Shown here: positions 11,504 through 29,316 of the stretch, piece after piece
How the letters are laid out: each line of letters opens with the position of its first letter
Numbering within the stretch: the stretch's first letter is position 1
From: Patescibacteria group bacterium
GTDB taxonomy: Bacteria; Patescibacteriota; Minisyncoccia; Phycocordibacterales; JANLHH01
Reading direction: 5' to 3'
Length of the DNA: 51,885 nt
NCBI GenBank assembly: GCA_038063375.1
Contig: JBBTVG010000005.1
Coordinates: forward strand, 21,669-73,553
The notes under the pieces: model-generated
What the model was told of the DNA's origin: nothing
Seen by the model: the letters and a program-made list of their open reading frames with translations, nothing else
Databases searched by the model: none
Made by a program: the position numbers and the translations under genes

Positions 11504-11929
11504 TTACTCCCCCCTCAACTTCCACGATTTGATGCCGATGATGAGGAGCGAGATGATGAGGAAGAGTGATGGAAGAAGAATTGATGCCAACTGATCGTCA
11601 GTCGGACCACTTATCCAGCTGCCGGTAACCGGTGTATTGTTGAAAGTAAATAAAAGAATGCCGAGCATGAGCGGAAAAGCAACGACTGCAAACTTCGCCC
11701 ATGCAATGAATGCTTCACGGCGAAGGAAGAAAAGTATCAACGTAATAATGAAAGGGGTGGAAAATGCAATAGCTATCGGATCGAAAAAATGTGTCATTTC
11801 CACACAGCCACGATACTCTACTGTATTTTCTGTACACAGAAAATTTCTAACAGGGATCCTTATGAAGATAGTGGATACGAACAACAAGGATACCGCAAAC
11901 AAAATCGCTATTATTTTTTTCTGCTTCAT
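11504..11929 (-). CDS. Small membrane protein of the LCAT-like cassette, copy 1
   Basis: Unrecognised 141-residue membrane protein. It has a hydrophobic N-terminal helix (about 5-24), a short outside loop with two cysteines (CTENTVEYRGC), and three further hydrophobic stretches (about 52-70, 79-97, 117-136), ending in IKSWKLRGE. It has a close paralogue at 23671-24093; the block LMLGILLFTFNNTPVTGSW and the C-terminal GPTDDQLAS to SWKLRG are nearly identical. Both copies follow an LCAT-like hydrolase gene by 4-5 bp, so the pair works as a unit. A role in anchoring, exporting or protecting against the hydrolase is conceivable but unproven. rpiB begins 9 bp downstream. Confidence 0.75.
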   Translation of the reverse strand: MKQKKIIAILFAVSLLFVSTIFIRIPVRNFLCTENTVEYRGCVEMTHFFDPIAIAFSTPFIITLILFFLRREAFIAWAKFAVVAFPLMLGILLFTFNNTPVTGSWISGPTDDQLASILLPSLFLIISLLIIGIKSWKLRGE

Positions 11930-14337
11930 AGTTTTTATTCTACCACATTAGCCTTGATCTTCTCCACAATCTCTATCAGGCTCTGAGCATCTTCTGTTGA
12001 AATCTTTTGCTTGTCTTCGTCATCCTTGTCGTGCCCGCGACCATCTTCGCGATCTTCCTCTTCGTGCTTATCGTTCCCATCTCTTTCTTTCTCTTTCGTA
12101 TTCTTTCTGATTTCCTCCTTGAGTTTGCTGAGTATCTTGTCCAGCTCTTTTGTCGCTTTTTTGGGTTTCCCTTTTTCCAATTCTTTCTTCGCTTTTTCAA
12201 CCGACTCCATAAGGTCTTTCTTTAGACCTCTCTGTATGTCCATCGTGTTGATAATATCTTCAAGAATTTGGAGTGAAAAGACACTGGTATTCTCACCTTC
12301 GCCAATGGAAACATCGGTTGTGCCGTCTCCATTAACGTCAATTGCAAGAAGAGAGGTAGTAATATCTCCTCCGATTTGAACGGTCGCGGTGGTGCTTGCC
12401 GTTACGGGAATATCTTCATAGAGAACAGTGTTTGTCATCTCTTCACCGATCACTTCTTCAATTTTAAGCGTAAATGTGCCAAGTGAAAGTCCGTTCAATT
12501 GAACCATGGTAGTTGAGGCATTGCCTCCGCCGGTATACTGCCCCTCCCCGATCTGCCAATAATAGCTGTTGGGAATCTGCTCTTCAAAAAGTTCAATATC
12601 GGACAACGGATCAGGGTTTGGTATTGAGCCCGTATGGCGACCAGATTCATCATAGAGATGTAGTGAGACGGGTGAATGAGCGCTTATGCGCAACCGCTTG
12701 ATGGTGTCTGAAACGGGCGGAGTAGATGATGAAATGAAAACGGGAAGCATGCTTGTGGCCCCACGCTTAATGAGAGTGGTAATGAGATCTTGAAGGGGAT
12801 CAATTTCAAGAATATTTTTGTGGGAACGACCACTAATTTCAGGCAGTAGAAATTCTTCTTCGTTATATTTAAATATATCAACATAATACCTCTCCCCTCC
12901 CAATGCTTCAGCTGATACAGAAACAACTGTCCCATCTCCTTCCGATGTGATGAGCGGCTGCGGATCAATGACGTCTACATTTTGGCATACCGAGAGATCT
13001 TGGGTGCACACATTCTTTATTGCCGCCGTATATCGAACGCCACGCAACGTATCAAGCCCCCAGCCGACCACTTCAATAACGTCAATTCCTTCCGGTGGTG
13101 TCCATGCATCAAGCTCTTTGTGGCGCTCTTCGGCATTCACCAAGAAATGTTCTTTGAGAACGTTGGGGATATTCACTTCACCCGAAAGGGGTTCAGCTCT
13201 ACCGCCGTACTCACCGCGGAGAAATCTGCGTAACGTATCATAGTCTGAAATGGAGTCACTGTAGATAGCGCGAAGCGCCTCTGTTACGAATGTGACGGCA
13301 TCAAACTCAATGACCGGACGAATGGACGTGCCAAGACGGTTGAAATACTCTTGTGACGGAAGAAGAGTATATGCGCTCTTCATATTCTCCGCCATCTCAC
13401 GGGTAGCTTCCTTGCTGGGAAAACCAATAGGAAATTTTGCTCCGTGAAGCATTTCCAAAATCGCTTTCGGCGTTCCGAGCTCCGGAGCGGCAATCATAAT
13501 AATACGGTCAACGAGGTGCGCTTTCCCTTGCCGTTCCAATTCATTCATTAATTCCTTTGCCACCAAGCCGCCGTTTGAATGCGTAACGAGCGTTACTTTG
13601 CCTGTGGGCGAGGTGCTTGCCATCTCTTCAATGCGCGACACCATAGTGTATCCGCTGTTTTTAAGGGAGATAACGCGGGTTGCTACGTCTTTGATATCCA
13701 TCCGCCAGTCATACGGCAGTGACTGAAATTCTTTGATGTCGCCATTGGCAACCATGGCATTCATGTGCGCAAGAAATCCTTTGTAAATATTGACAGTATA
13801 TGCCTCATCAACAACATCGTTGGTGTAAATATCAGGATCAATACTTTCTCCCGTAATCGGCGAGAGAGCGAGCTTTCCTACATCGTTGTTTGTGTTTGGT
13901 GTCCACAATTGATTCTCAAAGAGTCCCTCCTGTACGTACAACCGGCTCGCTTCAAGCCCCGGCAGAAACGCCACATTGGAATAGCCGGTTTGGAAGAAGA
14001 GAGTGCCGTCAGCAGGTAGATACAGAGTGGTGCTTGCGCTCTGCGCTTCAAAATAATATTGATACTTCCCTTTTGGGAATGTCGAGGTGGCGATATATTG
14101 TTCACCGTTGGTAAAAATACCGTCGCGAAGCGTGGTGCTTGCGGACGCCATGTCGGGTACCATTGAGAAACTTGTTGTCGCGGTGCCATTTCCCACAAAC
14201 ACATTCATTCCGCTGGGCGCAGTAGCGCCGGTATACACCGCCTTAAACACCATGGGTGTAGAGCTCGCTGTCCCCTTGTTCGGATGCACGCCCGAACTTA
14301 TCGCGTCTGCCGCAAAGCCATCTTCTTCGGCGTAGGA
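11504..14337 (-). repeat. Duplicated cassette block, copy 1
   Basis: This stretch covers the small membrane protein gene and the part of the hydrolase gene from the Ig-like domain to the stop. It is a diverged direct copy of 23671-26464, clearly alignable at the DNA level over nearly 2.8 kb. Similarity stops at about residue 429 of the hydrolase, where the N-terminal domains become unrelated. Confidence 0.8.
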
Positions 14338-15621
14338 GAGCATTAATGAAACATCAGGAGCACTTATCCACCCGTCCTGCGTTATCCAAGGGAGAAGGTC
14401 GGAATTAAACCGGTCAAGAACAAGGGGTGTGTCGCAGAAACTATCGGCGTTCGTGTCTGCACAGCCTTCTGCTGGTTTGTCATAAGTGTCCCAGTAGTTG
14501 CCGCCGTCAGGAAGCGCGCGATTAAAAAGACTTACGCTATTGAAGGAATTTATGTGGCGAATCGCGCTTGCAAAAAAGTTATTCTGAAAAATCTCGTTGT
14601 TCTGGGAATACTGAAGATTCATCGCATAGAAACCGTGGTTTCGGATGGTGTTGTTGTGGATGATGTTGTTGTCAGAATATTGGAGAGCCATGCCGATAGG
14701 TCCATTTTCTATGAGATTCAGCGTAATCGTGTTTTTGTTACTCCGGGAGAGAGAAATACCGCCGTTCGAATGAAAGTCTGTGATGATGTTTTGAGAAAGA
14801 GCATTCCCGTTTGAAGAAACGAGGAAAATACCGAACGGGAGCGTGGTGAACGTATTCTTTGTGATGTTGGTGGACGAAGCGGTATCCAGAGAAACACCAA
14901 AGGCGCCTTCAGCGATAGTGTTCCCTTCGATCGTAATCCCCTCCGATGAAATAAGCGCGATGTTGTCGCGGAAATTTTTGATTGCGAGGTTTTTGATGGT
15001 GACTCCTTTCCGCCCCGAGAGAAAGACCCCCATGCCGGAACCTGGGCCGGAAAGCATATATCCTCCGCCATCAAGGGTGATGCCATCGGAGTCAATCTGA
15101 ATAGTTTGAGCGAGGTTTCCGGTGAGCACGCAGGTCTTTGCAATGCTATTCCAAATCCCAATAGAAGCGCAGTCTCCTCCCGTTGCATCGTCGCGGATAA
15201 AGTACGTGCTCTCCCGTGGTTGGATAATGAGGAAATTTTTATCGTTGAGGTTTTGTGTGAATACGCCGCGACCCGTGCCATCAGTCGTGAACGTGCGCTT
15301 ATCGTGATAATCGTTTTCGTAGAGGAAATAGGTATGTGCCAGTATTAGACCGGTAAGTACGATTTCGGTGGAAGAAGCGATAGTAAGGGGTTCAAGACGT
15401 ATTGTTGCTGTATCAAGAGCGGAAACAAGGCGTACACGAAGCGGCTCTGTGCTCGTGAACGTGAGAGTGTCTACGTCGTTTGTTGCTTCAAAGTACGTAT
15501 CTTCCCCTTCAACGATAAGAGGAATAGTCTGCGCAGACACACCAAAAGAAAAAAGAAAGAAAAGCGCCCCTGTACCAAGTGCTTTGAGAACTGTTTTTTT
15601 ATTAGTGGCGCTTTTTACCAT
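11935..15621 (-). CDS. Secreted LCAT-like alpha/beta hydrolase with beta-helix N-domain (copy 1)
   Basis: A 1228-residue exported protein. In order: signal peptide (1-30, ending VSA); an N-terminal beta domain; a right-handed beta-helix of the NosD kind (about 170-400) ending in GNYWDTYD; an Ig-like domain (about 440-545); a lecithin:cholesterol acyltransferase-type hydrolase (about 548-950) with FLPGLEASRLY, LPYDWRMD, nucleophile Ser682 in THSNGG, Asp896 in EGDGTV and His934 in SHKN; a beta domain (HSPVSLHLYDESGRHTG); and a charged helical tail like FIMAH domains. A lipase, esterase or acyltransferase on lipids or surface polymers is inferred. It begins 16 bp after gap. The AGGA is unusually close to the ATG. 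Confidence 0.78.
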   Translation of the reverse strand: MVKSATNKKTVLKALGTGALFFLFSFGVSAQTIPLIVEGEDTYFEATNDVDTLTFTSTEPLRVRLVSALDTATIRLEPLTIASSTEIVLTGLILAHTYFLYENDYHDKRTFTTDGTGRGVFTQNLNDKNFLIIQPRESTYFIRDDATGGDCASIGIWNSIAKTCVLTGNLAQTIQIDSDGITLDGGGYMLSGPGSGMGVFLSGRKGVTIKNLAIKNFRDNIALISSEGITIEGNTIAEGAFGVSLDTASSTNITKNTFTTLPFGIFLVSSNGNALSQNIITDFHSNGGISLSRSNKNTITLNLIENGPIGMALQYSDNNIIHNNTIRNHGFYAMNLQYSQNNEIFQNNFFASAIRHINSFNSVSLFNRALPDGGNYWDTYDKPAEGCADTNADSFCDTPLVLDRFNSDLLPWITQDGWISAPDVSLMLSYAEEDGFAADAISSGVHPNKGTASSTPMVFKAVYTGATAPSGMNVFVGNGTATTSFSMVPDMASASTTLRDGIFTNGEQYIATSTFPKGKYQYYFEAQSASTTLYLPADGTLFFQTGYSNVAFLPGLEASRLYVQEGLFENQLWTPNTNNDVGKLALSPITGESIDPDIYTNDVVDEAYTVNIYKGFLAHMNAMVANGDIKEFQSLPYDWRMDIKDVATRVISLKNSGYTMVSRIEEMASTSPTGKVTLVTHSNGGLVAKELMNELERQGKAHLVDRIIMIAAPELGTPKAILEMLHGAKFPIGFPSKEATREMAENMKSAYTLLPSQEYFNRLGTSIRPVIEFDAVTFVTEALRAIYSDSISDYDTLRRFLRGEYGGRAEPLSGEVNIPNVLKEHFLVNAEERHKELDAWTPPEGIDVIEVVGWGLDTLRGVRYTAAIKNVCTQDLSVCQNVDVIDPQPLITSEGDGTVVSVSAEALGGERYYVDIFKYNEEEFLLPEISGRSHKNILEIDPLQDLITTLIKRGATSMLPVFISSSTPPVSDTIKRLRISAHSPVSLHLYDESGRHTGSIPNPDPLSDIELFEEQIPNSYYWQIGEGQYTGGGNASTTMVQLNGLSLGTFTLKIEEVIGEEMTNTVLYEDIPVTASTTATVQIGGDITTSLLAIDVNGDGTTDVSIGEGENTSVFSLQILEDIINTMDIQRGLKKDLMESVEKAKKELEKGKPKKATKELDKILSKLKEEIRKNTKEKERDGNDKHEEEDREDGRGHDKDDEDKQKISTEDAQSLIEIVEKIKANVVE

Positions 15622-22867: not shown

Positions 22868-23605
22868 TTATTGTTTTATCGCCTGTTCAATGATTGATTT
22901 AAACTCTCCGTAATTTCTCGGGTTTTGCAGCTTTTTGCCGTTGAGAAAGAAAGTTGGCGTTCCACTGATCTTGAGAGAAATGCCGCCGTTGTAATCTTCA
23001 TTTACTTTTTGCTTCACTTCCTTTGAGTCTATGTCGCTCCTGAATTGTTCGCTGTTAAGACCGAGCGACTCGGCATATTTCACAAAACTATCAACCGCGT
23101 TCTTTTGATTTGACCATTCTTTTTGATTTTCAAAGAGAAGGTCGTGCATCTCCCAGAATTTTCCTTGCGCTCCTGCTGCCTCCGCCGCGCGCGCCGAGAG
23201 GTCGGCGTTCGGGTGGATCTGACGGAGAGGAAAATGCCGGTACACAAAAGCAACATCGTTGCCAAACTCATCCACCAGCTGTTTCACCACCGGATGGTAC
23301 GCGCCACAGGCGGGACATTGAAAGTCGCTGTATTCAACAAGCACGATCTTTGATCCGCTGTTGCCCTTGACCCAGTCCGACGAAGAGATACTTAAGAGAG
23401 CGGATGGTTCGGAAGGCGTGAGTGTAGTATTTTTTACTAATCCCCAAACAACCCCTCCGACAAAAACCGCCACGAGAAGCCACACGGCTATTTGCTTAGC
23501 TTTTTTCATTCGTTCCATTCGCGTTTGCCTGGCAAGCTTCTCCTCCCGCCGCGACTCTATGCTCTCCTTCGGAGATATCTGTTGGTTTTGTTCATCCATA
23601 ATCAT
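22868..23605 (-). CDS. DsbA-like membrane-anchored thiol-disulfide oxidoreductase
   Basis: Thioredoxin-fold protein of the DSBA/Thioredoxin_4 group, 245 residues. A charged cytoplasmic N-terminus is followed by one transmembrane helix (about 39-57), then the catalytic domain with EYSDFQCPACGAYHP (Cys97, Cys100), HFPLRQIHPNADLSARAAEAA and the cis-proline SGTPTFFLNGK. Such proteins introduce or reshuffle disulfides in secreted proteins. The nearby LCAT-like proteins carry cysteines in their extracellular parts and could be clients, which is an inference. It lies 65 bp downstream of the copy 2 membrane-protein gene. The start could be 23605 or the second ATG at 23599. Confidence 0.9.
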   Translation of the reverse strand: MIMDEQNQQISPKESIESRREEKLARQTRMERMKKAKQIAVWLLVAVFVGGVVWGLVKNTTLTPSEPSALLSISSSDWVKGNSGSKIVLVEYSDFQCPACGAYHPVVKQLVDEFGNDVAFVYRHFPLRQIHPNADLSARAAEAAGAQGKFWEMHDLLFENQKEWSNQKNAVDSFVKYAESLGLNSEQFRSDIDSKEVKQKVNEDYNGGISLKISGTPTFFLNGKKLQNPRNYGEFKSIIEQAIKQ

Positions 23606-23670: not shown

Positions 23671-24093
23671 TTACTTCCCTCTCAACTTCCACGATTTGAT
23701 GATAATAATGAGGAGAGAGATTATGAGGAAGAGTGATGGAAGAAGAACTGATGCCAGTTGGTCATCAGTTGGGCCACCTATCCAACTGCCCGTGACCGGC
23801 GTGTTGTTGAAGGTATATAAAAGAATGCCGAGCATGAGCGGAAACACAACGCCCGCGAACTTCGCCCATGCGATGAACACTTCACGACGGACGAAGAAAA
23901 GAATGAGAGAAACGACAAGAAGAGGGAGAAAAGACCAGAGAAGTGGTTCTATAACGTTAATTATGGAGGTTATACATTCACGTTCCTTGATACTTTCCTC
24001 CACGCAAAAAAAATCTTGGACAGGAAAAAATAATGCTCCGGTAAACAAAGCCGAAACAACAAATAATACAGGCACGATTTTCTTTTTATTCAT
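23671..24093 (-). CDS. Small membrane protein of the LCAT-like cassette, copy 2
   Basis: A 140-residue paralogue of the protein at 11504-11929, with the same layout: N-terminal hydrophobic helix, a short loop with two cysteines (CVEESIKEREC), then three hydrophobic segments, and the near-identical C-terminal half (NNTPVTGSWIGGPTDDQLAS to IKSWKLRGK). The N-terminal third is more diverged than the C-terminal two thirds, suggesting that the inner helices and the last loop carry the function. It begins 4 bp after the stop of the second LCAT-like hydrolase. No family is recognised. Confidence 0.75.
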   Translation of the reverse strand: MNKKKIVPVLFVVSALFTGALFFPVQDFFCVEESIKERECITSIINVIEPLLWSFLPLLVVSLILFFVRREVFIAWAKFAGVVFPLMLGILLYTFNNTPVTGSWIGGPTDDQLASVLLPSLFLIISLLIIIIKSWKLRGK

Positions 24094-26464
24094 GTTTTTA
24101 TATTATCACATTATTTTTAATTTTCTCCACAATCTCTATCAACTTCTGTGCATCTTCGGTTGATATTTTTACCTCTTTTTCTTTGTCTTTATCTTCGTTT
24201 TTTTCGTGCTTGTCATTCTCATCTCTTTCTTTTGTATTCTTTTTGATCTCCTCCTCTAGTTTGCTAATCATTTTACCCAGCTCCTTTGTCGCTTTTTTCG
24301 GTTTCCCTTTTTCCAATTCCTTCGTCGCTTTTTCAACTGACTCTGTAAGGTCTTTCTTTAGACCTCTCTGTATATCCATTGCGTTGATAATATCTTCAAG
24401 TATTTTGAGCGAGAAAGCATTGGTGTCCTCGCCTTCGGCAATGGAAACATCGGTTGTGCCGTCTCCATCAACATCAACTGCAAGAATGGGGGTGACGATA
24501 TCTCCTCCGACCTGAACACTCGCCGTGGTGCTTGCCGTTACGGGAATATCTTCATAGAGAATAGTGTTCTTTGTTTCTTCACCAGTCACTTCTTCGATTT
24601 CAAGGGTAAATGTGCCTAACGAAAGTCCGTTCAATTGAACCGTAGTTGTTGTGGCACCGTTTCCGCCGACATATTGCCCTTCCCCGATCTGCCAGTAGTA
24701 GCTGTTAGGAATTTGATCTTCAGAGAGTTCAATATCAGAAGACGGGTCTGGATTTGGTATTGGCCCTGTATGCCGGCCAAATTCGTCGTAGAGATGAAGG
24801 GTAACTGGGGAATGAACACTTATGCGTAGGCGCTTGGCAGGATCAGCAATGGTAGGCATAGACGATGACATGAAATCTGGAAGCGCGCTTGTGGCTTCAC
24901 GCTTAATGAGGGTGGTAATGAAGTTTTGGAGAGGTTCAATTTCAAGAATATTTTTGTGGGAACGATTTATACTAGTAAGTGGTTCATTATACTCAAATAT
25001 ATCCACCCAATACCTCTCCCCTCCCAGTGCTTCCGCTGAAACAGAAACTACCGTTCCATCCCCTTCCGACGTAATAAGCGGCTGAGGATCAATAACATCC
25101 ATCACTTGGCATATGGAAAGATCCTCATTGCACACATTCTTTTCCGCCGCTCCATATCGGATACCGCGCAACGTATCAAGTCCCCAGCCGATCACTTCAA
25201 TAACATCCATTCCTTCCGGCGGTGCCCATGTATCAAGTTCTTCGTGGCGCTCTTCGGCATTAGTCAGAAAATGCTCTTTAAGAACGTTCGGAACATTCAC
25301 TTCGCTCGGTAAGGGTTCAACTCTTTCGCCATACTCACCACGGAGAAATCCGCGCAATGTGTCGTAATCTGAAATTGACTCACCATAGATAGCACGGAGC
25401 GCTTCTGTTACGGGCGTGGTCGTACTAAACTCAATGATCGGACGAATGGACGTGCCGAGACGATTGAAATACTCCTGTGACGGAAGAAGAGTATATGCGC
25501 TTTTCATGTTCTCTGCCAATTCACGGGTAACTTTCTTACTTGGGAAATTCAGAAAGAAAAAATCTATACCGTGCAGTATTTCCAAGATCGCTTTCGGTGT
25601 TCCAAGCTCCGGAGCAGCAACCATGATGATGCGGTCAACGAGGTGCGCTTTCCCTTGCCGTTCCAACTCATTAATCAATTCTTTTGCCACCAAGCCGCCG
25701 TTTGAGTGGGTAATGATCGTTACTTTACCGGTAGGCGATGTACTTGCCATCTCTTCGATACGCGACACCATAGTATATCCGCCGCTTTCAAGAGGAATAA
25801 TACGGGTTGCTACATCTTTGACATCCATCCGCCAGTCATAGGGCAACGGTTTGAACTCTTCAATGTCACCGCCGGCGACCAGTGTATTCATGTGCGCAAG
25901 AAATCCTTTATAGATATTCACGGTATATGCCTCATCAACAACATCGTTGGTATAAATATCGGGATCAATGCTTTCTCCCGTAATTGGCGAGAGAGCGAGC
26001 TTTCCTACATCATTGTTTGTGTTTGGTATCCATAATTGATTCTCAAAAAATCCTTCTTGTACGTACAACCGACTCGCCTCAAGCCCGGGTAGAAAGGCGA
26101 CATTGGAGTAGCCGGTTTGGAAGGTGAGAGTGCCGTCAGCAGGCAGGCGGACGGTGGTACTTGTGCTCTGTGCTTCAAAGTAGTACGTGTAGTTTCCTTT
26201 GGGAAAAGTTCCGGAAAACACATACTGTTCTCCGTTCTCGAATATGCCATCGCGCAATGTGGTGCTTGCGGATGCCGTATCAAGCGCCATCAAGAAACTC
26301 GTTGTCGCGGTGTCGTTTCCCACAAGCACATTCATCGCATCCGGCGCAGTTGCGCCGGCATAGACTATCTTAAACACCATGAGGGTAGAACTTGCCGTGC
26401 CTTTGTTGGGATGCACGCCCGGGCTCTCCATGTCAGACAAGAATCCTTCTTCTTCCGCATAAGC
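23671..26464 (-). repeat. Duplicated cassette block, copy 2
   Basis: Diverged direct copy of 11504-14337, on the same strand. It covers the small membrane protein gene and the hydrolase gene from the Ig-like domain (about residue 215) to the stop. Most differences look like third-position changes, so the duplication is old and both copies appear to be under selection. Confidence 0.8.
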
Positions 26465-27106
26465 AAGAGTGGAGGTTGTTGCAGAAGATGCTCTCAACAC
26501 ACCCATGTAATCGTAAACTTCCTGTATGGTGTCAATGTAACTTAAATCTTCATCTGTGTATGAAATAAAATAGATTTTTTTATTTATCTTCGGGGCAGCG
26601 AAGCGAATAGCCTTTACTTGATCATCATAGATACCAACCCAATGTTTAAGTTGAAAAAGGGTGCCATCAAAATAAAAAGTGCTCGCGACAGTACCATAGC
26701 TCGTATATCGCGCGCGTCCGGTTTTAACATCAACATATCGTAAATAGTTGTCGTTTCCTCCAGTCGGATCTAGTAATGCCCAAAATTTCCACCCGTCAGC
26801 ACCTTTTGTTGCCGACATATCAATGATCGTGTCGCTTGGCGACAATCGAATCCCTTGTATGGGGCTGTATAAAAAAGAGGTGAAGTAATGAACACCATTA
26901 GAGTCAGTTCCCATATCAAAAGGAATGGTGTCAGATAATTGCCACTTCAAGTCTTTGCTGTCGGTGTCATCAACCTGTGTGCTCCAATCGCTTCTATAAG
27001 CCGCGAACGACACCGATGGTACGACAAAAAGCGCGCTCGTAAAAAGTGTGCTGAAAAAGCATATCGCGGTGATTTTGCGTGTTGTGTGGAGAGGTTGAAT
27101 GCTCAT
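24098..27106 (-). CDS. Secreted LCAT-like alpha/beta hydrolase with unrelated N-domain (copy 2)
   Basis: A 1002-residue exported paralogue of the protein at 11935-15621. Signal peptide 1-35 (ending VSFA). Residues about 36-205 are a beta-rich, Trp/Tyr/Asp-rich domain unlike the beta-helix of copy 1 and not recognised. From about 215 the copies align: Ig-like domain (about 225-330), LCAT-type hydrolase with FLPGLEASRLY, LPYDWRMD, nucleophile Ser468 (THSNGG), Asp683 (EGDGTV) and His717 (SHKN), the HSPVTLHLYDEFGRHTG beta domain, and the charged FIMAH-like tail. All three catalytic residues are kept. It starts 17 bp after the Wzy-like gene, so a role on surface glycans or lipids fits. Its substrate is unknown. 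Confidence 0.78.
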   Translation of the reverse strand: MSIQPLHTTRKITAICFFSTLFTSALFVVPSVSFAAYRSDWSTQVDDTDSKDLKWQLSDTIPFDMGTDSNGVHYFTSFLYSPIQGIRLSPSDTIIDMSATKGADGWKFWALLDPTGGNDNYLRYVDVKTGRARYTSYGTVASTFYFDGTLFQLKHWVGIYDDQVKAIRFAAPKINKKIYFISYTDEDLSYIDTIQEVYDYMGVLRASSATTSTLAYAEEEGFLSDMESPGVHPNKGTASSTLMVFKIVYAGATAPDAMNVLVGNDTATTSFLMALDTASASTTLRDGIFENGEQYVFSGTFPKGNYTYYFEAQSTSTTVRLPADGTLTFQTGYSNVAFLPGLEASRLYVQEGFFENQLWIPNTNNDVGKLALSPITGESIDPDIYTNDVVDEAYTVNIYKGFLAHMNTLVAGGDIEEFKPLPYDWRMDVKDVATRIIPLESGGYTMVSRIEEMASTSPTGKVTIITHSNGGLVAKELINELERQGKAHLVDRIIMVAAPELGTPKAILEILHGIDFFFLNFPSKKVTRELAENMKSAYTLLPSQEYFNRLGTSIRPIIEFSTTTPVTEALRAIYGESISDYDTLRGFLRGEYGERVEPLPSEVNVPNVLKEHFLTNAEERHEELDTWAPPEGMDVIEVIGWGLDTLRGIRYGAAEKNVCNEDLSICQVMDVIDPQPLITSEGDGTVVSVSAEALGGERYWVDIFEYNEPLTSINRSHKNILEIEPLQNFITTLIKREATSALPDFMSSSMPTIADPAKRLRISVHSPVTLHLYDEFGRHTGPIPNPDPSSDIELSEDQIPNSYYWQIGEGQYVGGNGATTTTVQLNGLSLGTFTLEIEEVTGEETKNTILYEDIPVTASTTASVQVGGDIVTPILAVDVDGDGTTDVSIAEGEDTNAFSLKILEDIINAMDIQRGLKKDLTESVEKATKELEKGKPKKATKELGKMISKLEEEIKKNTKERDENDKHEKNEDKDKEKEVKISTEDAQKLIEIVEKIKNNVII

Positions 27107-27123: not shown

Positions 27124-29316
27124 TTACGGATTGCGGCCGGCGCGAATCTCTCCTATATAATAGTCTGCTTGAGCTTTAAACTCCGGATTGAGCTCTGTCG
27201 CTTTCTCCAGTTCTGCGATTGCTTTCGTGCGCTCCTCGTTTGCAAGGTATGCCGCGGCGAGCGAGACGTGGAATTGAGCATTGTCGGCTCCCGCAGTCTG
27301 CGCTTTCAGAATACGCTCTTTCCAGATATTAATGACCGTCTCATAATCTTTCACCGCCGCGAATGCTTGAATGAAACGATCGTCGGGGACCGCTATGGTT
27401 CCGTACACCGGCACCAGGAGTTCTTTCGCAAGATCAAAATTCTTGTTATAGATCGCGATTACCGCGTAAATATCCCGCGCGGTTCCGTTCTTTGGTTCAA
27501 TTTCATACGCCGTTTTCATGGTGAGAAGCGCCTTGTCGTATTGCCCTTTGCCGAGGTACGAATTTGCCAACTCAAAATAGGTGGACTGTTTGCTCGGGGA
27601 AAGTTCAATGGCTCGTTCCAAATGAGCAATTGCTTCGTCGGGCGCGCCGACGGAATTTAAAAAGGAGCCGATCAAGAGTTCGTAGCGCATATCGTCCGGT
27701 GTCTCTTTGATCTGCTTGCCCATCTCGTCTCGCGCGAGGAGAATGAATTTCTGCTTCATGTCTTGAGGCGCGCCGGTAGAGACAATGCGTCCCGTGGTTT
27801 GCATGAGATGTTCGCGCACTTCCGGAGTGCCAAATGAATTGTACGCGAGCGCCTTCTTGAAATATTCAATATTTTTTTCCAGCCCCGCTTCTTGGGGGGT
27901 CATGCCTTGGATGAGCGCGCGATTGGCGAGGAAACCTTTTGCGTTTACGGCGTAGATAAGAATGATTGTCGCGACAAGAACTATCGCCATGACAGTGTGT
28001 TCGGGTATCGCGGAGCGAACCGGCTCTTTTTGTTCGCTGTTCTTTGCTGTCGTCATGGTTGCCATTGTGTGTATATATCCGAGCATCGTGACAAACAGCA
28101 CATAGCTTATCAGGTTATCAAACACGAACAGATTCTGAAAAAAGTATGCCGCGAAAAGACCCGTGATGACACTCTTTTCCATTACTGAAAAGGAATTGTC
28201 TCTTCTTCGCCAGATATAGAAAAGCGCGGCGGCGAAGATAGAAAGGTACGCGAGGAGCCCCACAATGCCTCCGGCGATAAGCCAATCTAAAAATACATTG
28301 TGCGCACGGTCAAAGAATGGCTCCTGGTCATACAGCCGCGAATCATAGTATTTGTTAAATACCAGATTGAAATTGTCTTGTCCCCAACCGAGCAAAGGAT
28401 TTTCCTTAAACCCTTCAATCGCCATACCCCAAATCTGAAAGCGAGACTTAGTAGTTTGCTCCTGTAATGAGATACCGGAAAAACGCGAGAGCACGGGACT
28501 TTTCTTCACAAAGTTTGTATCTTTGATCGCAAAGAAAACGCCGGCAAGCACGATTACGCCGATGATAACTCCGCCTGCGATTTTTCTGAAAAGCGGCCTT
28601 TCCCTCTCAAAAAGCGCGATGAGAAGCGCGGTAAGGAGCACTCCCCCGATGAGCCCCAAGATCGTACCGCGTGTCGCGGTGTGATAAAGAATAAAGACAT
28701 TGAGGAGCATGGTGGCGCCATACACAAGACGAAGTAAAGAGAATCGCGTGCGCACGGAAAGTAAAGCGGCAATAAATATATGGAAGAGCATATAAACCGC
28801 CAAGTATGTCGCGTTGCCAAAGGTCGCATCAAGCCGAACACCTCCCTGGTTGATGGTAATCGCGCCCGAGAGCTGAAACAATCCATAAATGCCGACTATC
28901 ACGCTGGCACCAAGGGAGACTTGAAGCAACCTCTCCCATAATTTTTCTGTGGTAAGAACAGATGTCGCGACGACAAAGTACGCGAAAAGATGGAGCAATG
29001 TTACCAAACCCTCCATACGCTCGTAATTGCTCCAGAAACTACGGGAGATGTTTACGCCAAAAAGGTCGGCAACCGTCATGACAACTACAAACGCGCCAAG
29101 AGCGATAAGTATCCACGATCGTTTCGGCCGATACGAGGGAGAGGTGAGCGCCAACACCAGCCACGCGCCGAAGATGATCTCCACCAATGCTCTAAACGCG
29201 AAATTCTTTCCCGTGATAAAAGGGAAAAACATATCGTTCAAAACAACAAGAGCAAGAAACGGGGTCAAGAAAACACCTCCGATCACCAGACTTCGCAAAA
29301 TACGCTCAATATTCAT
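27124..29316 (-). CDS. O-antigen ligase/polymerase-like membrane protein with C-terminal TPRs
   Basis: A 730-residue protein in two parts. Residues about 1-455 contain some 12 transmembrane helices with the Wzy_C/WaaL region: SRFQIWGMAIEGFKENPLLG, WGQDNFNLVF and FFDRAHNVFLDWLIAGGIVG. The His in RAHN is typical of the family. Residues about 470-720 form TPR repeats (for example DEAIAHLERAIELSP and TKAIAELEKATELNP). Such proteins polymerise or transfer lipid-linked glycans, and ligase, polymerase and protein O-oligosaccharyltransferase cannot be told apart. It is divergent from the glycan locus at 29.4 kb and heads the run with the second LCAT-like cassette. Confidence 0.87.
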   Translation of the reverse strand: MNIERILRSLVIGGVFLTPFLALVVLNDMFFPFITGKNFAFRALVEIIFGAWLVLALTSPSYRPKRSWILIALGAFVVVMTVADLFGVNISRSFWSNYERMEGLVTLLHLFAYFVVATSVLTTEKLWERLLQVSLGASVIVGIYGLFQLSGAITINQGGVRLDATFGNATYLAVYMLFHIFIAALLSVRTRFSLLRLVYGATMLLNVFILYHTATRGTILGLIGGVLLTALLIALFERERPLFRKIAGGVIIGVIVLAGVFFAIKDTNFVKKSPVLSRFSGISLQEQTTKSRFQIWGMAIEGFKENPLLGWGQDNFNLVFNKYYDSRLYDQEPFFDRAHNVFLDWLIAGGIVGLLAYLSIFAAALFYIWRRRDNSFSVMEKSVITGLFAAYFFQNLFVFDNLISYVLFVTMLGYIHTMATMTTAKNSEQKEPVRSAIPEHTVMAIVLVATIILIYAVNAKGFLANRALIQGMTPQEAGLEKNIEYFKKALAYNSFGTPEVREHLMQTTGRIVSTGAPQDMKQKFILLARDEMGKQIKETPDDMRYELLIGSFLNSVGAPDEAIAHLERAIELSPSKQSTYFELANSYLGKGQYDKALLTMKTAYEIEPKNGTARDIYAVIAIYNKNFDLAKELLVPVYGTIAVPDDRFIQAFAAVKDYETVINIWKERILKAQTAGADNAQFHVSLAAAYLANEERTKAIAELEKATELNPEFKAQADYYIGEIRAGRNP

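Follow-up and report, generated by a model that had tools for sequence, protein, structure and literature searches.

Introduction

In modular CAZymes and lysins, a constant catalytic domain is combined with exchangeable binding modules. Polymorphic toxins (CDI, Rhs, MafB) are modular exported proteins with a constant N-terminal delivery domain and a variable C-terminal toxin, and their loci carry a small downstream gene and orphan C-terminal fragments with partner genes. In the LipA-Lif systems of Pseudomonas and Burkholderia, the gene of an exported lipase is followed by that of a membrane protein, and Lif itself crosses the membrane once and has a large part in the periplasm.

It is an open question where Patescibacteria without fatty-acid synthesis find their membrane lipids, and what determines host range in this group is another. 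An enrichment of lysolipids was reported for CPR cells, with phospholipase A suggested as the source (PMC7242380). Secreted phospholipases were proposed to serve CPR predators (PMC8080830), and the mechanisms of lipid uptake and breakdown were stated to be unidentified (PMC11665869).

Here, a window of 51,885 nt (the whole stretch of DNA analysed, from contig JBBTVG010000005.1 of a Patescibacteria genome) was examined. It is best read as holding two paralogous cassettes, in each of which the gene of a Sec-exported lipase of the LCAT/PDAT type precedes that of a dedicated 4-TM membrane protein (Table 1). The lipase is a modular exported enzyme with intact catalytic residues, its N-terminal module (N-module) has been replaced repeatedly, and it is linked to a partly variable partner.

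Table 1. Features of the two lipase cassettes, with positions in the window.
Feature	Position	Strand	Basis
Copy 1, 1228 aa, exported; NosD-type beta-helix, LCAT lipase, putative FIMAH domain	11935..15621	(-)	ORF, Pfam
Copy 1 pre-helix segment (res 33-150), common only to L038, L094, L102	15172..15525	(-)	homologue comparison
Copy 1 right-handed beta-helix (res 151-415)	14377..15171	(-)	Pfam NosD 1.7e-26; HMM
Copy 1 linker module (res 428-547), start of the identity with copy 2	13981..14340	(-)	BLASTP, DNA comparison
Copy 1 LCAT/PDAT-type lipase core; Ser682, Asp896, His934	12802..13980	(-)	Pfam LCAT 1.2e-20
Copy 1 putative helical FIMAH domain (res 1119-1174)	12100..12267	(-)	Pfam E 2.5e-4
tm1, 4-TM membrane protein, partner of copy 1; variable half 11717-11929	11504..11929	(-)	gene comparison
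Copy 2, 1002 aa, exported; LCAT lipase behind an N-domain unrelated to that of copy 1	24098..27106	(-)	ORF, Pfam
Copy 2 orphan N-domain (res 36-213), 178 residues	26468..27001	(-)	no homologue, no profile link
Copy 2 linker module (res 214-333)	26108..26467	(-)	BLASTP
Copy 2 LCAT lipase core	24947..26107	(-)	Pfam LCAT 3.5e-16
Copy 2 putative FIMAH domain (res 902-957)	24236..24403	(-)	Pfam 24.8 bits
tm2, 4-TM partner of copy 2; variable half 23884-24093	23671..24093	(-)	gene comparison, AlphaFold

Comparison of the two copies

The lipase is present in exactly two copies in the genome to which the window belongs (701,876 bases, 98.7% complete). BLASTP returned a single long alignment between them, residues 428-1227 of copy 1 against 214-1001 of copy 2 (801 residues, 80% identity), and no alignment between their N-parts, which confirmed the view of the first-pass annotation that two unrelated N-parts stand on one enzyme. 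The same annotation had described an abrupt onset of similarity at GVHPNKGTASST. The onset is indeed abrupt, but it lies approximately 16 residues earlier, at L-[ST]-YAEE-x-GF (residue 428 of copy 1, 214 of copy 2), with the segment GVHPNKG approximately 16 residues past this start.

In DNA, similarity began at the same border (nt 1347 and nt 703 of the compared stretches of copy 1 and copy 2, respectively) and extended on through the downstream 4-TM gene; in this comparison it took in neither the gene on the upstream side nor the DNA past the small gene. From this border and extent, the common unit consists of linker, lipase, C-terminal region and small gene, without the N-domain. The exchange junction lies between the leader or N-module and the linker or core. 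For the parts common to the copies and the sister species, dS was approximately 0.8-1.0 (0.8 between copy 1 and copy 2) and dN approximately 0.12, and given this substantial divergence the copies are not recent. Max-chi2 breaks inside the lipase core were significant; faster change in the sister lineage could also produce them, and they are only suggestive of a mosaic structure within the core.

Two neighbours of copy 2 were also recorded. A DsbA-like thioredoxin gene (22868-23605) lies directly 3' of the cassette, and its best match in the sister species is only 34% identical and on a different contig. Just upstream, an O-antigen-ligase/TPR protein is encoded (27124-29316), for which no relative was found in the sister species.

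Linker, lipase core and C-terminal region

LCAT (PF02450) scores were 74.6 and 59.8 bits against a gathering score of 21. The Ser682, Asp896, His934 triad and the P-G and YDWR motifs were invariant in all 82 homologues, and profile and triad place the enzyme in the LCAT/PDAT family, with its activity predicted. A PDB sequence search with the core gave no relative at E 0.01. At the C-terminus, FIMAH (PF22888, cutoff 24.8 bits) was matched exactly at the cutoff by copy 2 and below it by copy 1 (22 bits). Residues 428-547 had first been labelled Ig-like, a label without support from Pfam (best match E 0.027, below cutoff); this segment is a conserved linker module, present in 11 of the 82 homologues.

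N-terminal domains of copy 1 and copy 2

The N-domain of copy 1 matched Pfam NosD (E 1.7e-26, residues 177-381), Beta_helix (8e-17) and TIGR03804 repeats above cutoff, in agreement with its original description as a NosD-type beta-helix. Assignment to the NosD copper maturation protein itself (TIGR04247) was rejected at 70 bits against a cutoff of 300. Three further cores carry the same beta-helix subtype with its pre-helix segment, and of these L094 and L102 are distant. Neither for this N-module nor for that of copy 2 was a donor found in the window's genome.

The copy 2 domain, reported initially as Trp/Tyr-rich, is rich in Tyr (7.9%) and also in Asp (11.8%), and only mildly so in Trp (2.8%). 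The N-parts of copy 1 and copy 2 contrast in Asn (12 vs. 2%). Across 397 genomes of the order, 384 of the class, phages and viral contigs, searches with the copy 2 domain returned only the domain itself and noise-level matches, and nothing significant was found by sequence in the PDB. That it is a degenerate beta-helix homologous to that of copy 1, which the first-pass annotation had named as its own refutation, is highly improbable. The AlphaFold model from the single sequence (strands and a C-terminal helix only) is compatible with such an origin, although at pLDDT 38.6 it is uninformative; against it, hhalign gave a probability of 0.2% with a 21-member beta-helix profile and ≤1% with every other N-cluster, and no Pfam or NCBIfam family and no beta-helix repeat was matched. 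By profile, the two N-domains are thus unrelated, as first proposed.

A third N-domain at the copy 1 locus of the sister species

In the sister species (G001, locus L036, contig JANLHH010000030.1), the genes are arranged as GAPDH, lipase, 4-TM gene, orphan lipase C-terminal fragment, 4-TM gene and RpiB, an order syntenic with the locus of copy 1, and core and linker are approximately 80% identical to those of copy 1. Judged by profile, the N-domain (approximately 370 residues) matches neither the beta-helices nor the domain of copy 2, and a relative of it is carried by the distant lipase L052. A third unrelated domain at the syntenic locus indicates that, inside a single genus, one N-domain took the place of another at an orthologous site. 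Resemblance of the leaders of copy 1 and the sister-species gene, considered as an upstream recombination point, was marginal (p about 0.01).

Survey of N-modules across the order

The lipase core was present in 126 of the 397 genomes of the order, and N-domains were surveyed in 82 long open frames. Their N-parts formed approximately 22 groups (one large beta-helix-related group of 40, several of 2-5 and eleven singletons), a count in which the largest group is partly chained and which may be inflated by modules too diverged to link. The N-part of L099 is a LamG/ConA-like lectin domain, many others are beta-helices, and most of the remainder have no family. The linker stands behind at least three N-types in its 11 proteins (beta-helix, copy 2 N-domain, L036-type N-domain and others), and beta-helices occur both with and without it.

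Between 31 and 35 changes of N-type were needed on the core tree. Sister pairs with differing N-types were L094/L103, L105/L111, L052/L057, L053/L059 and copy 1/copy 2/L036; conversely, one N-type was found on distant cores in L036/L052, L037/L106 and copy 1/L094/L102. Together, these two patterns point to recurrent exchange of modules rather than drift, and replacement of the N-module on one enzyme is well supported as recurrent across the order. The swap proposed in the first-pass annotation from two copies was therefore borne out by the third N-domain of the sister species, the approximately 22 N-types on 82 cores and the at least 31 changes. The exchange may have proceeded by fusion or through homologous recombination within the linker.

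These data also bear on a housekeeping surface lipase with weakly constrained N-parts, which would be homologous but far diverged, or would have gone missing and been restored through chance fusions, without adaptive targeting. N-parts of the same type do diverge faster than their cores (L043/L044: core 85%, N-part 58%, TM about 43% identity), as such a lipase would predict. We nevertheless consider it quite unlikely: copy 1 and copy 2 are 80% identical in the core while their N-parts have no profile similarity and differ strongly in Asn, and the same N-types on distant cores need exchange, not drift.

The downstream 4-TM gene

A 4-TM gene was located directly 3' of the lipase stop in 54 of 83 loci, and 24 loci had none, so that presence of the partner is patchy; of 20 genomes with the 4-TM family, 18 also have the lipase. 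A link between N-type and presence of the 4-TM gene was rejected, as the raw excess (33/37 vs. 19/38) was not significant once the tree was considered. With 49 relatives, AlphaFold gave a confident four-helix model (pLDDT 87.9), for which Foldseek found no PDB match below E 0.001. The family appears to be undescribed.

Identity between tm1 and tm2 was 39% in the first half and 88% in the second; against the sister species, the 4-TM proteins of the window gave approximately 26% and 81%, respectively. This variable-then-constant pattern forms a second swap-like block inside the same cassette. Under the positive-inside rule, the variable half would comprise TM1 and TM2 with an outer loop between them, in which two cysteines are often present. 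About ten loci hold arrays of 2-3 such genes. At L113 (6714-8010) three stand in tandem, two of them with C-halves 97% and N-halves only 26% identical, and in L101 the corresponding values are 86 and 46%. At L153 (2455-5554), a gene pair that by eye resembles an AbiE-type nucleotidyltransferase and its antitoxin stands between two 4-TM genes that have the same C-half.

Orphan lipase C-terminal fragments were found at L036 (5407-5712), L105 (8254-10273), L042 (7236-7568) and other loci, with a 4-TM gene behind each of them. They lie 3' of the full lipase and recall the orphan tip modules of polymorphic toxin loci.

Such arrangements could be those of an effector-immunity system, in which the lipase is an antibacterial toxin for use on competitors, the 4-TM protein confers immunity and the arrays are a CDI/Rhs-like repertoire of immunity genes and tips. 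The frequent position of the 4-TM gene directly 3' of the lipase, its arrays, the orphan fragments with a 4-TM gene each and the held C-half beside a varying N-half all favour it. It is the poorer fit, given that it is the enzyme that stays constant, and an immunity protein against a conserved enzyme would need no variable half. Further, the orphan tips are without the lipase domain, 24 loci are without a 4-TM gene, only Sec-type leaders and no dedicated delivery domain were present, and PADLOC, Pfam and NCBIfam assigned the 4-TM protein to no toxin or immunity family. We regard an effector-immunity role as unlikely.

Proposed function

We lean towards a Sec-exported lipase that is re-aimed by swappable N-modules and, with its membrane partner, obtains or attacks the lipids of other cells; targeting, substrate and the role of the partner are what we infer here. 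An interchangeable module stands in front of the constant part (linker, alpha/beta-hydrolase and putative FIMAH region), and the modules most likely bind different glycans or surface structures on the cells fed upon by these ultrasmall bacteria. The many beta-helices and the LamG/ConA-like domain of L099 are modules of a binding type and favour this view. The lipase would free fatty acids or lysolipids from neighbouring membranes for a bacterium without fatty-acid synthesis. The 4-TM protein may be a cognate partner at the cell's own membrane, serving as anchor, as export or folding helper, or in self-protection. Against the lipase reading, exported LCAT-family enzymes can be acyltransferases instead of lipases.

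Ketoacyl synthase and PlsY were searched for in the 98.7% complete genome without a match, and controls were positive. A lipid-cleaving role is consistent with the lysolipid excess of CPR cells (PMC7242380), with the proposal on secreted phospholipases of CPR predators (PMC8080830), and with the statement on lipid uptake and breakdown in PMC11665869. The family (126/397 genomes) is a concrete, order-wide candidate enzyme for lipid acquisition, and its exchangeable front modules would be candidate determinants of host recognition. It is possible, if somewhat doubtful, that the cassettes form a polymorphic cell-interaction system, in which N-module and outer-loop half of the partner recombine, orphan tips with partners serve as a repertoire, and the range of hosts or prey is altered without change to the enzyme.

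Comparison with known systems

With LCAT/PDAT enzymes (PF02450, serine acyltransferases/phospholipases A), the family shares the LCAT profile, PG-x-x-x-S, YDWR, the HSxGG nucleophile, the GDGTV aspartate and the late histidine; it differs in being bacterial and Sec-exported, with interchangeable N-modules and a putative C-terminal FIMAH region. In the open-access literature, no paper was found on LCAT proteins in Patescibacteria or on the lipase/4-TM system. Secreted Patescibacteria phospholipases offer a possible likeness: Vamp_34_196 of Vampirococcus is predicted to be secreted, breakage of host membranes and provision of lipids were proposed as its role, and the passages on it mention neither interchangeable N-domains nor a membrane partner (PMC8080830).

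The order of an exported lipase gene and a membrane protein gene is that of LipA-Lif, but unlike Lif the partner here has four TM helices in 140 aa, and no PDB fold match. A likeness to polymorphic exported proteins, also drawn in the first-pass annotation, holds loosely. Modular export, a small downstream gene and orphan C-terminal fragments with partner genes are shared with CDI, Rhs and MafB toxins, whereas the layout is the inverse, with a variable N-terminus, a constant enzyme and no toxin delivery domain found. As in modular CAZymes and lysins, the catalytic domain is constant and the modules are exchangeable; here the enzyme would act on lipid, exchange is N-terminal and the lineage is ultrasmall and probably epibiotic. 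The cassette has traits of polymorphic-toxin loci and fails their defining layout, and it would work like modular enzymes with binding domains.
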